Part shown: positions 1 through 6,892 of the stretch, one piece after another | Numbering within the stretch: the first letter of the stretch is position 1 | How the letters are laid out: every line of letters starts with the position of its first letter | Source: Candidatus Desantisbacteria bacterium CG1_02_38_46 | GTDB taxonomy: Bacteria; Desantisbacteria; UBA1551; UBA1559 | DNA: 6,892 nucleotides | Reading direction: 5' to 3' | Assembly: GCA_001871015.1 (NCBI GenBank) | Contig: MNUO01000090.1 | Coordinates: forward strand, 1-6,892 | Translations under genes and position numbers: made by a program | The notes under the pieces: model-generated | Told to the model about the DNA's origin: nothing | Databases searched by the model: none | The model's input: the letters and a program-made list of their open reading frames with translations, nothing else

Positions 1-545
1 ACAATCGCAGGGACAACAGATATTAAAAATATGCTGCGATAATTCATTCCTGCTTTAGAAAAAAGGAAAAATGCTAACAGAGGTCCTGCAACCGCTCCTG
101 AAGTATCCATTGCACGGTGGAAACCAAACGCCCTGCCCCTTTCGCTTTCCGTGCAGGAATCTGCAATTAAAGCATCTCTGGGAGAAGTCCTCATTCCTTT
201 CCCGGTCCTGTCCAAAAACCTCAGTGCTAAAACATGCCAGCCTCTGCTTGCTATCGAAAGGAATGGTCGACTTACAGCAGTAATTCCATATCCTGTTAGA
301 ATGAAAATTTTTCGCGATTTCAACTTGTCAGAGAGCCACCCAAAAAGAACCTTTAAGAAACTCGCTGTTGTCTCCGCTATTCCTTCAATTAATCCTATAA
401 ATGCTTTATTCACCCCAAGGACATTTGCCAGAAACAGAGGCAACAGAGAATAATTCATCTGGCTGGAAACATCCTCAAAAAAACTTGCCCAGCCAAGTAT
501 TGCTATATTCTTTTTTAAATTCTGTTCTTTATTTTGATCTGCCAT
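1..545 (-). CDS. MFS transporter, N-terminal part (cut by left edge)
   Basis: This is the first 181 codons of a major facilitator superfamily inner-membrane transporter. The frame is open to base 1, so the C-terminal half lies outside the window. After a short polar N-terminus (MADQNKEQNLKKN), hydrophobic segments lie at about residues 14-50, 78-98 and 145-181. The loop between helices 2 and 3 carries MFS motif A, GWLSDKLKSRK, at residues 69-79. Residues 109-130 (RFLDRTGKGMRTSPRDALI then ADS) and 137-158 (GRAFGFHRAMDTSGAVAGP and following) are signatures I associate with one MFS subfamily of drug/metabolite-efflux type. Met at 545 is the first start after an in-frame TAA at 554-552. No clear Shine-Dalgarno site precedes it, which may mean reinitiation after the kinase gene ending 45 bp upstream. 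Family assignment is firm; substrate and direction of transport are unknown. Export of a product made by the upstream enzymes is inference. Confidence 0.9.
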   Translation of the reverse strand, partial: MADQNKEQNLKKNIAILGWASFFEDVSSQMNYSLLPLFLANVLGVNKAFIGLIEGIAETTASFLKVLFGWLSDKLKSRKIFILTGYGITAVSRPFLSIASRGWHVLALRFLDRTGKGMRTSPRDALIADSCTESERGRAFGFHRAMDTSGAVAGPLLAFFLFSKAGMNYRSIFLISVVPAI

Positions 546-590: not shown

Positions 591-1970
591 TTAAAAAGTC
601 AATTGCCTCAGACCGTCCTGAGGAAAACATATCTCTACCCCGAGAGGAAGATTTTTAATATCATAATAATTTTCTTTCAATACTTTTTTTAATCCTTCGG
701 TATCTTCTTTTTTTAATAAAACAGCAACGTATCCGCCCAGGCCTCCCCCAACCAATCTTGCTCCTAAAACTCCTGGTGTTTTCAGGGCTAAATCAACTAT
801 TCGGTCAGCCTCCTCACAACTTACAGCATACCCTCCCGGCTGTTGGTAAAGAGGAGAATTATCTTCTAACTCTAATTCTTTTAATCGATCTCCGTTATGA
901 GAAATATTCATTAGCTCTCCAAACTTTTCCATCTCTCCTTTTCTTAAAAAATCCGCACAAATTCTGCTTCTTTCGCTTTCTGCAATTCCAAAAAGAAAAA
1001 CACCGCGAACACGGTATCCCTCTTTTAATTCTTCATGAGTTTTATAAATTATCTCCAATTCTTTTTTTCTCGAAGATAATTTTTTATTTAATTCTTTTCG
1101 AGAAATTCTTAGAGGCAGTGTTTTCAAAATTTTATAGATATAAGAAAGTTCAAAATTTTTAGTATTTATGTCTCTGAGCATTTTTATCGAGTAAAGAGAT
1201 GGGAATTGTTCCTTAACTAAAAAAAGGGAAATTTCATAAGTTGCCACTCTTTCATTAAAAATATTTTTTGCCCCTTCTGATTTTTTTGCCTCCTTAAAAG
1301 TATTACAAATTGCAACGCAATAATCCTCCGGGAAAGAAAGATGCTCTATTTTTAGAGGAGAAAAGGAAATGTGCGAAATGTTTCCTCTCTTACTTAAAAC
1401 AATTGCAGCCTGGTCCCCCTTACCACCCCTTGTCCCGACATACCATTCTGCTTCACCGCAAGAATCGATAAATTCCTCATCAGGTAAAGAAATATCGTTT
1501 ACTTTGAGAAAAGCAAAAGAAGCTCCCATGTTAAGCGCTGTAGAAGAACTTAAACCGCCAGCCATCGGGATATCACTATCAATTAATAAATTCATCCCGG
1601 AAATTTTATTTTCAAAAAATTTATTTTTAAAATATAGAACTCCTGCCTTTATGTAATTTACCCAATTTCCCTTTTCAATCTTTATATTATTAATCCACTG
1701 GTTCCATTCAACCTTATCCGGTATTTCTTCGGAAATTAAAAATTTTTGCTCGGCAAATCTTTCGTCGGAATTAAAAACCTGCACTGTATCGTCAATTCTT
1801 TTCTGCACAATTATTTTCATTTCTCTTGTAGCAATTGGATTAACCGAACCACCACGATGGTCGACATGCATCCCTAATAAATTTACTCTTCCAGGAACAG
1901 ATAAAAAAATAAGATTTTTATCATCGTTGTAGATTTGCTTAAATTTTTTTATCAAATCTTCCCATTCCAT
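591..1970 (-). CDS. Galactokinase-like GHMP family sugar kinase
   Basis: This is a cytoplasmic GHMP-superfamily kinase, most like galactokinases, which phosphorylate a sugar at C1 with ATP. The three family motifs are in order. Residues 26-41 (PGRVNLLGMHVDHRGG) form the N-terminal substrate motif. Residues 138-144 (GGLSSST) form the phosphate-binding loop. Residues 403-414 (ARLVGGGLGGYV) form the C-terminal glycine-rich motif. GKGDQ, with Asp186, matches the galactokinase catalytic Asp region, and SHNGDR (357-362) matches the conserved SH motif. The usual Glu of GEHTDY is Met here (Met34), so the sugar may not be galactose. At 459 residues it is longer than the usual 380-400; the extra length appears to lie in residues ~250-325. 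The ATG at 1970 is preceded by AAAGGAG at a 10-base spacing. The gene overlaps the upstream ATP-grasp gene by 19 bp. A sugar-1-kinase role is well supported; its substrate is not known. Confidence 0.88.
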   Translation of the reverse strand: MEWEDLIKKFKQIYNDDKNLIFLSVPGRVNLLGMHVDHRGGSVNPIATREMKIIVQKRIDDTVQVFNSDERFAEQKFLISEEIPDKVEWNQWINNIKIEKGNWVNYIKAGVLYFKNKFFENKISGMNLLIDSDIPMAGGLSSSTALNMGASFAFLKVNDISLPDEEFIDSCGEAEWYVGTRGGKGDQAAIVLSKRGNISHISFSPLKIEHLSFPEDYCVAICNTFKEAKKSEGAKNIFNERVATYEISLFLVKEQFPSLYSIKMLRDINTKNFELSYIYKILKTLPLRISRKELNKKLSSRKKELEIIYKTHEELKEGYRVRGVFLFGIAESERSRICADFLRKGEMEKFGELMNISHNGDRLKELELEDNSPLYQQPGGYAVSCEEADRIVDLALKTPGVLGARLVGGGLGGYVAVLLKKEDTEGLKKVLKENYYDIKNLPLGVEICFPQDGLRQLTF

Positions 1971-2998
1971 CTTTGCATTACTCCTTTGCCAAAATTCTCA
2001 CCGAGACTTATTTTGTTATTCCCTATAATCCTTGAACCAACAACTACAGGCCGCGGATTAACATCGATAATATAAGGAATATTGTCTTCCACAACTACAT
2101 CAATACCAATAAGAAGGGAAGGCTTGCTGCCCTGAAAAATTTTTTCCGTTGATTCGCAGGCAGTTTTTTTTATACAATCTATTTCCTCTTTTTCGAAAGA
2201 ATTTAATATTTCATTGATATTTTTTTTCTCTGCCTTCCTGATTGCACTGACAACCTCTTCCCTGCCTTGCATTACATAACCGCTATCCGCCTGATAAACT
2301 CCATCATAAGTTACATTGATTCTTAAAACAAAAAAATCGGCTCCTAAACCTGCTCTCCTTGTGCTTCCCCTCTTTTCTCTAATTATTAAATCCTCGTTTT
2401 TATTACTTATATATTCAAAAATGTTTTCAATCTCAGATTTTTTAAAAAATCTGCAGTCAATCCCTTCTGTTCCATGCTCCGGCTGGACAAAAATACCGTC
2501 ACTTTTGATGTCTTCTAAAATTTCTTTCAGACTGTTTAGACCAATTTTATTAAATTTTGATATTTTAAAACAAAGAGGAACTGGAATATTATTTTCTTTA
2601 AGAATTTCATAAGTCCTGAACTTACTTTCGCAATTTAAAACCCCCCTGTTATAAGGATTGACCATCGCTATTTTTCCCTTACCAAAAGAGTCAGACAATA
2701 AACGATGCAATCTGGATTCCTGAAAAGGATTAAGAAAGAGAAAGTGAACAATGTCGGCTTTTAAAGGAGAATCAAACTCAATTTCTTCCAGATTATCTTT
2801 TTTATTAAAATAAAAAGCTTTTTTAAATTTTAAATTCTTGTCTATGCAAGAAGGCAAAACCCCGAAAACAAAAGATGGCAGAGCATCCCTGGTAGAAATT
2901 CCATTTTTTAAATTGTATTCACGAATGTCACAATGAAAATAATAAAGAGTATCCTCAAGATTTTCCAGAGAAGCATTAAAAACAATCAAGTATAGCAA
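1952..2998 (-). CDS. Stand-alone ATP-grasp ligase-like protein
   Basis: This 348-residue soluble protein looks like a complete ATP-grasp enzyme. The family joins a carboxylate to an amine or similar nucleophile through an acyl-phosphate. Residues 1-112 would be the pre-ATP-grasp domain. Residues 113-141 (VNP..., ESKFRTYEILKENNIPVP) match the usual 'N...K..t..L...gipvP' entry to the ATP-binding domain, with Lys126. Residues 171-180 (VQPEHGTEGI) fit the glycine-rich strand-loop, and IIREKRG (205-211) the second nucleotide-binding strand. The metal site reads GIDVVVEDN (298-306) and IIDVNPRP (310-317), with Asp300, Asp312 and Asn314; Asp312 stands where Glu is more usual. TTG at 2998 is the start: TAA TAA lies directly upstream in frame and GGGGG sits 8 bases before it. 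The exact ligase family and substrates are not recognised. The end overlaps the sugar kinase gene by 19 bp, so a shared pathway is likely. Confidence 0.75.
   Translation of the reverse strand: MLYLIVFNASLENLEDTLYYFHCDIREYNLKNGISTRDALPSFVFGVLPSCIDKNLKFKKAFYFNKKDNLEEIEFDSPLKADIVHFLFLNPFQESRLHRLLSDSFGKGKIAMVNPYNRGVLNCESKFRTYEILKENNIPVPLCFKISKFNKIGLNSLKEILEDIKSDGIFVQPEHGTEGIDCRFFKKSEIENIFEYISNKNEDLIIREKRGSTRRAGLGADFFVLRINVTYDGVYQADSGYVMQGREEVVSAIRKAEKKNINEILNSFEKEEIDCIKKTACESTEKIFQGSKPSLLIGIDVVVEDNIPYIIDVNPRPVVVGSRIIGNNKISLGENFGKGVMQRWNGKI
1981..1987 (-). promoter_or_regulatory. Ribosome-binding site of the sugar kinase, inside the upstream gene
   Basis: The sequence AAAGGAG is read on the minus strand, 10 bases before the ATG at 1970. 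It lies within the last codons of the ATP-grasp gene, whose TGA stop falls 16 bases past the first base of the kinase ATG. This arrangement supports the chosen start and suggests translational coupling of the two genes. Confidence 0.7.
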
Positions 2999-3051: not shown

Positions 3052-6000
3052 TTATATACTTTTTTTGGATTTTGTCAAATCCTTGTATTTTTTTCCCCAT
3101 TCTCCCAAAATACTGAAAACGAGGTAAACACCCTCGCCATCTCTTCCTGCTAATTTTACACGGTCATTGTGTGGTCTCCACAAACCTGCTCCAGGGTTTG
3201 GCTCAATTTTAACAACCGCTAAAGACCTCATTTTTCTTTTCTTCTTTTTTTCCCTGGCATAGCTCCAGAAGAGATTCCTTTTTTTATCACCCTCAAATAG
3301 TTTTACCGGTGGATTCTGCACCTTTCCTTTATCATCATAAATTTTTATTTTTATCATACCCGAGGTAGATCCGCCGTGGCGGACATTTTTAGATAAAGGG
3401 ATAAAAACTTCATTTTCCTCATCGTACACTTTAACAACTTCATCATTCCTATTTACTAAAAAAACAGGAATGTAATCGCCCATTTCATAAAGAATGTTCC
3501 AGTCTGCAACGCCGATTTTATTAACTTTTTCCTCGAAGCTCACACCCTTGGCAAATTCAGGATGCAGTTCAAGGTAGCTTTCAATTATTTTCCTCCTGTT
3601 ATTTTTAATATATTTCTCTTCGGCCTTAATTGAAGATGGAGACACTCTTTCCATTTCTCTTCTCAAGTCTTCGCGGTATTTTACATTTATTTTTTCATCA
3701 CGGTATTCAAAAAGTCGACCTCCCTGCCCTACATTTGCAATTGCAGCACTACTTACAACTGTGATGTAATGAGTAGGTATGAATTCTCCGGATGGTCTCT
3801 TCATCAAAATTACCCTGAAATAAGAAAAGAGCGGAGCATCCACATCAATGCCGATTCCAAGTTCTCTGATAAATCTTTCCTTTAGAGTTTCAAGAAATTT
3901 ATTCGTGTAAAGTTCACGGACATTCGATTTAATTGCCTCCTGTATAACTACATTGTCGGTCTTTGAAATATCATAACTAATTTCTACGAGCTCTTCTATT
4001 TTATCTGCATAAAATATTTTACCGTCTCTAACGGGAAGAATTTTCGACCTTCTACCACCGGATTCTTTCTCTGCTTTAACAATTATAACTTCGCAGTCCC
4101 TGGCAAGGTCCTTGATAATTTTCCTTATTTTCACTTTTGCTTTTTCATTAAATCTCTCTGTATCTTTCCTGTACCAGTTCTCCTGTTTAGGTAAAGCTAC
4201 TCCGCTACCCTTAAGCATTGCCGGATACTCGCATTTTAAATAAGTTGCAGATTCCCACAGGAATGGTTGAATTAGCGGAAGTCCAAGTTGCTCAATCTCC
4301 ATCCTTAAAGGATGCGTAAAATGCAGCCAGCATGCGTGCAGGACAATTAGATTTGAGAATCTTACCAGTTTCCAGTTATTATTTTCATCACGGAAAAATG
4401 CTTCTCTTGCCTTCAATAATCCTTTTTCTATTTCCGGGAAAGGAACAAGGAAGAGGTTTATGTTATTGTCTTTTGCAAGTTTTGGCCCCTGTTCCAGAGC
4501 GACACTTACCGTAGTGTTTCCTAACGGGTATACTATCCCGATATTCACTCTTTCCCTGAATTTAATTAGTTCAGGGTCAAATGAATCAACTATTTCAGGA
4601 ATTGGATAACCGTCATGTATCAATGTGGAAATGTCCCTGAATCTTGCATAGGAAAACCAGAATTTCTCTTCTTCTTTTTCTACTTTTATTCCTATTGCCT
4701 GCTCGATAATCTTACCCTTCTGGATTTTTCCAAACCACAGATTCTTAGACGCGGTAGTTTTGTCTTTAAATTCTGTTTTTTTCTCTATGATTGCGCGGAT
4801 ATATTGATAAGTAATTCTGTGATGCAGTGTTGCGAGTTTAAAGATTTTATCTCTTGACCAGTTTTTGAATGCTGAAGTCCTTTCAATTGAATAATGATAG
4901 GGGTAATAATCAAAAATGTGATTATTTATTGTAAGGTCAAAGAACCTGGCAAAGGCAACCCACGCAGAATGCTCGTCTTCAATTTTAATTGTTTCCTGCA
5001 TGAGAAGGGCAATGTCAAGCAACTCTGCAACCTTCGCTACATTTTCAATGGCTTTATCATCCTTACATAGCTCAAAGAACTTTCCTATTCTTTTTGCCAG
5101 TCCCTGGTATTCACTCTCAAGGATTTCCCCTCCGCGGAAAACAGTTTCTATTTCTTGAGTAATTTCTTCAGGAGAAACAGAAAAATTGGTAATTAACTTT
5201 TGCCATGCCTTTTTGTTCTTGGCAAGAAACTTTCCAAATATCTCTTCGCATTTCTCCGGGTCCTTTTCTTTGAAAAAGAAGGAAGAAAGAGGAATTGCAC
5301 TGCGGTAAATTTCCTGAATATTATTTTCCTGTTTTTTCATCTCTTCACTAAAAGAATTTCTTCTCTTGCCCAATCTTATTGCTTCTAAATACTGTTTCCT
5401 CCTGATTTCTTTTGTTTCAAGCTTCAGATGCAATTCTTCCACTGCTTTCAAAGAACCTGAAACGCCGGTGGAGATTTCCCAGAATTTTTCTTCCTGCGGA
5501 GTGTATTTTTCCTTGAATACATAGTCTATAACTTTACTGCTCAATCTTGCGGATTTCTGTTTTAATATATCTTCATAATTTTCCCTTATCTGCAAAAGTT
5601 CATCACTGGAGATTTTTCCATTAAAAATATATCTTCCTCCTATAACTAAAAATGCACCGAAGTCCAGCTCTTTCAGATTTATGCCTCTGTTAATTTTTCC
5701 AAGAATTTCACGCTGGATTTTGTAAAAATTAGTGTCCAGCCCTCTTTCTCTTGCTTTTATTTCAAGGCTTATTAATTCTTCTATTTTCTCTTTCTGGTAA
5801 ATATATCTTGAAATTTCCGCTAGGATGAGGGAAGCATCTAATAATCTTTTCTCAAGGACACTGACAAGTAATTTTTGTGCCATCTCTCTTTCTTTAATCA
5901 TCTCTCTTTTCCACTCCTCAATTGTTTCCTTTCCGATTCCCATACAACCGTAAACAGCATTTTCTTCAATCGCGAACAGTTCTTTTACTTTGTCTTTACA

Positions 6001-6892
6001 GGAAGGATAGCGGAAAGCAAAAGTGGGTGTTCTTGCACCTGATGTACCGTCAGCAAAAATAAGCGCGCTGTTATTGTAATCCTTTTTCATTAAATAAATA
6101 ATTTTGGGAAGGTTATCAACAAGAACAAGCAATTCTTTATCAGGAATTCCAAGGTCAAGAAAATCGCAGGAAGTCATAGCAACAGGATATCTTTCCTTGG
6201 AATAAATTCCACGCTCCTCTAAAACAAGCACGTGAATTGCAGGCCCAATACTTTTAATTATTTTTTCTCTCATCTCTGAGGGCTTTTCTTCTATTCCCTT
6301 CCATTTTTTTAAATTTCCTCCGAATGTTTGTGCATTTGCTTTGATTGTTTGCCCGGTTAATCCAAACTTCAACAGTCTATTTTTCACAGCTTGTGAAATC
6401 TGAGCAAGGTTGTCACCGAATGCCATAAATATAACTTTATTTCTTAATTGCGCTAATACTGTTTCATCTTTAATCTTCCATTTCCAGCTTCCTAAATCCA
6501 CGCCAGACTCTTCTACATTTTCATCAATCCATTTTCTGTCATAACCGTTTTTCAAAAGGATTTCATAACCTTCCCTCGCATAAGAAGAAAAGTCCATAGG
6601 AACATGCCCGAACATGTCTTTTGCGGTGCACAGTCCAACCATTCTAATATCTGCAGGATAAGAATATTGGGAAAATATTTTTGCATAAATTTCTCTTCCT
6701 TCAGGGTCTATATCCTCAAGAAGATGTTCTATTCCTGTTCCGCAGAAAATTTCAAATTTACGCGCTCCGGCAGAAAAACGCACATCAGTAACATCTTCCT
6801 TATAGGAAGCTTCTATCATACCAATTAGTTCGTCGGCCCCAGTAACTTTGTGATTTTTATCTTTTGCTTCATTGTACAGAAGGTGGATAAGT
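3052..6892 (-). CDS. Large multidomain protein with C-terminal ATP-grasp-like ligase module (5' end outside window)
   Basis: This is a very large soluble protein. The first in-window Met is at 6819 (1255 residues), but the frame stays open for 24 more codons to the edge (LIHLLYNEAKDKNHKVTGAD and on). No Shine-Dalgarno site precedes that Met, so the gene very probably starts outside. Numbering here is from that Met. Residues 1-300 appear globular and are not recognised; IFADGTSGARTPTFAFRYP (254-272) stands out. Residues 300-700 are mainly helical, Lys/Glu-rich, and may include coiled coil. Residues 758-880 alternate strand and helix like a pre-ATP-grasp domain. ATP-grasp features follow: IIVKAEKESGGRRSKILPV (912-930), VVIQEAIKSN (957-966), FRVILMK (1001-1007), and SSAAIANVGQGG (1023-1034). 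The expected metal-site E-x-N reads LVN (1121-1123). A basic stretch (1189-1198) precedes the C-terminal ~57 residues. No membrane segment was seen. The function is probably ATP-dependent ligation; family and substrate are unknown. Confidence 0.8.
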   Translation of the reverse strand, partial: LIHLLYNEAKDKNHKVTGADELIGMIEASYKEDVTDVRFSAGARKFEIFCGTGIEHLLEDIDPEGREIYAKIFSQYSYPADIRMVGLCTAKDMFGHVPMDFSSYAREGYEILLKNGYDRKWIDENVEESGVDLGSWKWKIKDETVLAQLRNKVIFMAFGDNLAQISQAVKNRLLKFGLTGQTIKANAQTFGGNLKKWKGIEEKPSEMREKIIKSIGPAIHVLVLEERGIYSKERYPVAMTSCDFLDLGIPDKELLVLVDNLPKIIYLMKKDYNNSALIFADGTSGARTPTFAFRYPSCKDKVKELFAIEENAVYGCMGIGKETIEEWKREMIKEREMAQKLLVSVLEKRLLDASLILAEISRYIYQKEKIEELISLEIKARERGLDTNFYKIQREILGKINRGINLKELDFGAFLVIGGRYIFNGKISSDELLQIRENYEDILKQKSARLSSKVIDYVFKEKYTPQEEKFWEISTGVSGSLKAVEELHLKLETKEIRRKQYLEAIRLGKRRNSFSEEMKKQENNIQEIYRSAIPLSSFFFKEKDPEKCEEIFGKFLAKNKKAWQKLITNFSVSPEEITQEIETVFRGGEILESEYQGLAKRIGKFFELCKDDKAIENVAKVAELLDIALLMQETIKIEDEHSAWVAFARFFDLTINNHIFDYYPYHYSIERTSAFKNWSRDKIFKLATLHHRITYQYIRAIIEKKTEFKDKTTASKNLWFGKIQKGKIIEQAIGIKVEKEEEKFWFSYARFRDISTLIHDGYPIPEIVDSFDPELIKFRERVNIGIVYPLGNTTVSVALEQGPKLAKDNNINLFLVPFPEIEKGLLKAREAFFRDENNNWKLVRFSNLIVLHACWLHFTHPLRMEIEQLGLPLIQPFLWESATYLKCEYPAMLKGSGVALPKQENWYRKDTERFNEKAKVKIRKIIKDLARDCEVIIVKAEKESGGRRSKILPVRDGKIFYADKIEELVEISYDISKTDNVVIQEAIKSNVRELYTNKFLETLKERFIRELGIGIDVDAPLFSYFRVILMKRPSGEFIPTHYITVVSSAAIANVGQGGRLFEYRDEKINVKYREDLRREMERVSPSSIKAEEKYIKNNRRKIIESYLELHPEFAKGVSFEEKVNKIGVADWNILYEMGDYIPVFLVNRNDEVVKVYDEENEVFIPLSKNVRHGGSTSGMIKIKIYDDKGKVQNPPVKLFEGDKKRNLFWSYAREKKKKRKMRSLAVVKIEPNPGAGLWRPHNDRVKLAGRDGEGVYLVFSILGEWGKKYKDLTKSKKSI

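Follow-up and report, generated by a model that had tools for sequence, protein, structure and literature searches.

The DNA analysed here (the window, a complete contig of 6,892 bp) encodes the C-terminal part of a giant protein, probably of 2,292 amino acids, in which a nucleotide-sugar dehydrogenase fold enlarged by insertions precedes an ATP-grasp ligase domain. A stand-alone ATP-grasp protein and a sugar kinase are encoded downstream on the same strand. Both folds are already known; the fusion, the inflation of the dehydrogenase and the gene module are absent as units from Pfam, NCBIfam and PADLOC, and no dehydrogenase/ATP-grasp fusion was found in the papers searched. With homologous loci numbering about 40 and spread over roughly ten phyla, the giant protein is real far beyond chance.

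A giant gene cut by a contig end

The first-pass annotation described an open reading frame at 3052-6819 on the minus strand, encoding 1,255 amino acids. This frame is real and contains the motifs quoted for it, but it covers just part of the protein: the reading frame is still open at base 6891, where the contig (G000:C10) stops, and C123, another contig from this genome, whose end overlaps that of the window by an exact 308 bp, carries the frame on. The Met at 6819 is thus internal and not the true start. The joined C123 + C10 frame encodes 2,292 amino acids from an ATG at L003:14265, which is preceded by AGGAG. The true length is therefore approximately 1.8 times that reported earlier, the boundaries given earlier reflect truncation at the contig end, and what had been described as an N-terminal region of ~750 residues lies in the middle of the joined protein. 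We infer the join from the overlap, and homologues encoded in one piece back it: the copy in G028 (an Aerophobetes record) has 2,443 amino acids on a single contig, is collinear end to end, and is 44% identical to the joined protein over 2,188 aligned residues. The features of the locus are as follows.

591-1970, minus strand: GHMP kinase, galactokinase-like, 459 amino acids (PF00288/PF10509/PF08544); overlaps the ATP-grasp partner gene by 19 bp
1952-2998, minus strand: second, stand-alone ATP-grasp protein, 348 amino acids (PF02655, E 1.1e-8); 53 bp downstream of the giant gene
3052-6892, minus strand: giant gene, C-terminal 1,279 codons (full residues 1014-2292), stop codon at 3052-3054; based on the 308-bp overlap and full-length homologues
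3076-4548, minus strand: pre-ATP-grasp and ATP-grasp ligase domain, full residues 1795-2285 (AlphaFold pLDDT 84, Foldseek, VIA Z 17-20)
3196-3477, minus strand: predicted metal-binding Asp2152 (3475-3477) and Glu2243 with Asn2245 (3196-3204), invariant in both clades
3718-3735, minus strand: NVGQGG motif, residues 2066-2071; N.G.GG in every aligned row
4051-4077, minus strand: ATP-binding Lys1952 and ESGGR loop; K, S, G and R kept in both clades
4561-5883, minus strand: helical region, full residues 1350-1790; helices seen as part of the 1350-2292 model
5896-6831, minus strand: dehydrogenase C-terminal nucleotide-binding domain, full residues 1034-1345 (hhalign E 2.3e-4, fold, Lys1044/Arg1051)
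6775-6804, minus strand: 'YKED..DVRFSAG' within the dehydrogenase C-terminal domain
Contig C123, L003:14265-17609: giant gene, residues 1-1013; based on the exact 308-bp overlap

Seven tRNA genes in a run precede the giant gene on C123. Just upstream of the giant (L003:13640-14240), inserts of about 110-160 bp follow tRNA-Lys, tRNA-Leu and tRNA-Gly. Each of the three terminates in a copy of its own tRNA's 3' end, all contain CGCCACTGGTAAAGCGA, and two are 95% alike over 109 nt; the core common to them has no further copy in the genome assembly searched. They are perhaps a tiny element targeting tRNA 3' ends, or duplicated tRNA tails.

Dehydrogenase and ATP-grasp folds

Searches of Pfam, NCBIfam and PDB sequences with the window part alone gave nothing usable, and a match to the CvfB S1 domain (E 0.057) was dismissed as chance. 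TIGR03026 matches the N-halves of all 33 homologues (best E 2.7e-17). The window organism's protein matches at residues 753-887 with E 1e-8 and 34.4 bits, which lies below the curated cut-off of 189.8 bits. The Pfam central domain of UDP-glucose/GDP-mannose dehydrogenases matches 14 of 33 N-half members (best E 4.7e-6), with one giant copy above the Pfam cut-off. As a profile, the N-half alignment matches 3g79, an NDP-GalNAcA dehydrogenase, in the PDB (E 5e-8), and hhalign comparison with the ordinary UGDHs that these genomes also encode recovers the central (E 3.8e-10) and C-terminal (E 2.3e-4) domains. A model of the N-half of homologue L018 (pLDDT 86, pTM 0.83) matches the three-domain nucleotide-sugar dehydrogenase fold across residues 73-1186 with Z 19-21, so that an enzyme of ~430 residues is spread across ~1,100. 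Matches include 3g79 (Z 21.0 over 413 residues) and the GDP-mannose dehydrogenase 1mfz (Z 19.3, rmsd 3.6 over 351); some rmsd values are large because the domains are shifted, as for 3g79 (17.7). Full residues ~238-1345 are thus shown by computation to be a nucleotide-sugar dehydrogenase fold enlarged by insertions. One insertion of ~45 residues in the C-terminal domain (full residues 1116-1160, window about 6451-6585) is seen in hardly any other copy, with a column occupancy of about 2/22.

Eighteen residues are invariant in the nucleotide-sugar dehydrogenase family (PMC4794789), and many of them persist in the giants down to about 25% identity. Family Glu201, Lys204, Asn208, Gly257, Gly258, Cys260 and Lys320 correspond to E816, K819, N823, G872, G873, C875 and K1044, each present in 34/34; Cys875, Lys819 and Asn823 are the catalytic ones among these. 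Arg1051 is likewise retained in 34/34, Pro140, Asn287 and Thr118 also have invariant counterparts, and that of Gly7 is present in 29 of 31. Other positions have changed. The base, Glu141, is Ser764 in all 34 giants; Ser117 has become Thr and Asn219 Ser; and the Asp264 position holds Glu in main-clade giants and Asp in the divergent ones. Tyr10 is missing, as are two of the three Rossmann glycines, the GxGxxG NAD loop being GR[FM]SRA in the giants, with C for G in the window organism's protein. The P-loop and Thr118 were placed by structural match and inspection, not by scored sequence alignment, and family Thr83 was given no position in the giants.

The giants thus share with the TIGR03026 enzymes (UDP-ManNAc/NDP-GalNAcA dehydrogenases such as 3g79 and 4r16) and 1mfz the three-domain order and fold, the active-site Lys, Asn and Cys, the GG.C.PK loop and the YK..DxR nucleotide-binding motif. 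They differ in size (about 1,100 vs ~430 residues), in fusion to a ligase, in Ser at Glu141, in a degenerate P-loop and in score (34 vs 190 bits for the family cut-off). Because of the score, Glu141 and GxGxxG, we do not file the giant as a plain member of the nucleotide-sugar dehydrogenases. The idea that it replaces the ordinary UGDH was rejected, since the same genomes carry normal ones.

Residues 1350-2292 of the window organism's protein were modelled with AlphaFold from an alignment with 35 homologues (mean pLDDT 84). Foldseek ranked D-Ala-D-Ala ligase, DcsG and RimK at the top, and VIA, whose fold rows cover model residues 443-943, gave DcsG (Z 20.3, rmsd 3.6, 275 aligned), LysX (19.5) and RimK (19.2). 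The last ~490 residues therefore have the ATP-grasp fold, as had been proposed from the motifs. Lys1952, the SGGR loop, Arg2039, N.G.GG (2066-2071), Asp2152, Glu2243 and Asn2245 are conserved in both clades, with K1952, D2152, E2243 and N2245 invariant across all aligned rows; by analogy, the last three may bind metal. The domain shares its fold (Z 17-20), the Lys, the Arg, N..GG and the Asp/Glu/Asn metal set with DcsG (6jil), LysX/ArgX, RimK and D-Ala-D-Ala ligase. Unlike these amide ligases, to which it is 8-17% identical, it terminates a giant dehydrogenase, has strands inserted between the GG and E-x-N motifs, and matches no Pfam model at a convincing E-value (best, ATPgrasp_ST, E 0.0044 in 9/36 members).

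These assignments alter the earlier picture of the region preceding the ligase. It had been said to match no recognisable family. The first ~330 window residues are in fact the C-terminal domain of an NDP-sugar dehydrogenase; the helical stretch of ~440 residues that follows, covered as part of a larger model, is still without an assignment. A second catalytic domain had been anticipated there, and the dehydrogenase does precede the ATP-grasp, with its catalytic half on the other contig; the alternative suggestion of a carrier or scaffold found no support. The proposal of an undescribed multidomain ligase stands in that an ATP-grasp follows a second catalytic domain and no Pfam or NCBIfam family spans the full giant protein, but that second domain is a known dehydrogenase fold.

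Distribution and partner genes

A first genome scan with the lone window protein found no relative. With a two-row alignment as query against GTDB genomes, 20 loci were recovered, labelled Omnitrophota, Armatimonadota, Planctomycetales, Sumerlaeota, Hydrothermota, Latescibacterota, Aerophobetes, Bathyarchaeota, UBP4, Elusimicrobia and Zipacnadia. The total is now ~40 further giant loci besides that of the window, with complete copies of 2,195-2,690 amino acids. A divergent clade, about 25% identical to the main clade, is hosted by Latescibacterota with larger genomes. Giants of both clades combined occur in 20 of 64 Latescibacterota genomes and are rare elsewhere (4/256 Bathyarchaeia, 2/40 Sumerlaeota and 6/386 in a wide sample, in which a seventh match was rejected as an ordinary dehydrogenase-sized frame of 442 amino acids). 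A quick tree nests the archaeal giants among bacterial copies and puts Omnitrophota and Sumerlaeota at two places each, as gene transfer would predict; long branches leave the details unsure. No giant was found in the phage, plasmid and viral collections searched, and a PADLOC search gave no match and thus no sign of a defence system. In one Bathyarchaeota locus (L031:4105-11770), the giant lies in two overlapping frames with a break near full residue 1655, whereas it is fused in the sister strain L033; the break is a frameshift, an assembly error or a true split.

A stand-alone ATP-grasp homologue lies directly downstream of the giant, on the same strand and often overlapping, at 25 of the 33 loci with enough flank for this test. 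Of the 18 giants with wide flanks, 13 have a GHMP sugar kinase nearby. These tallies take every locus as found, including a few from close relatives, and do not represent independent events. The module of giant, ATP-grasp and sugar kinase is conserved across bacteria and Bathyarchaeota, several giants lack the partner genes, and no nucleotidyltransferase belongs to it. Profile comparison with hhalign relates the partner ATP-grasp to the giant's own ATP-grasp end (E 2e-8). At the position of the usual ATP-binding Lys, the partner (1952-2998 and homologues) has Gln in most of the main clade (VQP.xGTEG); the Lys is kept in most of the divergent clade. A gene upstream of two Latescibacterota giants was dropped as a candidate ATP-grasp partner because Pfam shows TPR repeats.

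In the main clade the kinase partner resembles galactokinases, and in the divergent clade fucokinases; that different kinase branches fill one role speaks for selection acting on sugar activation and against chance linkage. Like galactokinases and fucokinases, these proteins have GHMP motifs and either the GalKase signature or the FKP kinase half. Unlike them, they fall below equivalog cut-offs; the kinase at 591-1970 matches TIGR00131 with E 6e-50 and 170.2 bits, below the cut-off of 226.65 bits. The Glu of the GEH motif has a recognised role in galactokinases, and it is replaced in every galactokinase-like homologue aligned. Galactose itself is thus an unlikely substrate.

Behind the kinase, the start of an MFS transporter (window 3-545) is cut by the contig end and does not cluster with neighbours of other giants. 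At three Omnitrophota loci (L022:14292-16124, L024:7218-8834 and L036:2817-4667), the module is followed by a radical SAM protein of the KamA family (lysine 2,3-aminomutase-like), which hints at a beta-amino acid as the amine to be ligated.

Proposed reaction and alternatives

What the computation shows is the folds, the conserved residues and the gene linkage; from these we infer a kind of substrate, an acceptor and a hand-over between the heads, and we lean toward a two-headed enzyme of ~2,300 residues that takes an activated sugar to the acid level by oxidation before ligating the acid. The sugar kinase partner would activate the sugar at C1; the dehydrogenase head, using NAD(P) and its Cys, would take the primary alcohol of the sugar to the acid level; and the ATP-grasp head would convert the carboxylate to an acyl phosphate and couple this with a nucleophile, for instance an amine. 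A further unit may be appended by the partner ATP-grasp. Uronamides and aminoacylated uronates are examples of the sugar-acid conjugates that would result. Against this reading count the lack of a nucleotidyltransferase in the module and the giants that have no partner genes.

The loss of two Rossmann glycines, Glu141 and Tyr10 makes a full four-electron oxidation with hydrolysis uncertain, and the absence of Glu141 leaves room for an altered end to the dehydrogenase reaction. With Ser in place of the base in 34/34 giants and the equivalents of Cys260, Lys204 and Asn208 invariant, the head might halt at an aldehyde or a Cys-bound thioester, with hydrolysis switched off and either an amine or the fused ATP-grasp head taking over the acyl group. 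A precedent is human UGDH E161Q, which was crystallised with a thiohemiacetal intermediate (PMC3184952; 3khu) and whose E161 is, by our own mapping, the counterpart of Glu141. However, a residue in the large insertions could supply the base, and the Asp264 position is still acidic in both clades; we regard halted oxidation as unlikely, if worth keeping in view. If it were true, one giant enzyme would make a sugar amide or peptide-like conjugate directly from an activated sugar, a new dehydrogenase-ligase chemistry.

The degenerate NAD P-loop and the enlargement of about 2.5 times could be read as signs that one head is catalytically dead, a scaffold or sensor, with only the ATP-grasp active and ligating a sugar or amino acid that the kinase provides. 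Against this, neither the catalytic Cys, Lys and Asn nor the GG.C.PK motif varies across two clades at 25% identity, and we consider it rather improbable. We give least credence to a secondary-metabolite or surface-polysaccharide enzyme whose halves use different substrates and are fused merely for co-expression: the patchy, transfer-like distribution and the varied wider neighbours (SDR, 6PGDH-like, KamA-like) would fit, but no PKS, NRPS or glycosyltransferase set recurs among the clustered and annotated neighbours.

The giants form an enzyme family without a name, of 2,200-2,700 residues, with active sites conserved in bacteria and archaea. They join two familiar enzyme folds in one protein, a pairing unreported in the sources searched, with a fixed partner set. 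The replacement of Glu by Ser is a natural test of thioester release in nucleotide-sugar dehydrogenases, and the order of sugar kinase, oxidase, ligase and second ligase offers a testable pathway in host lineages known almost only from metagenomes.
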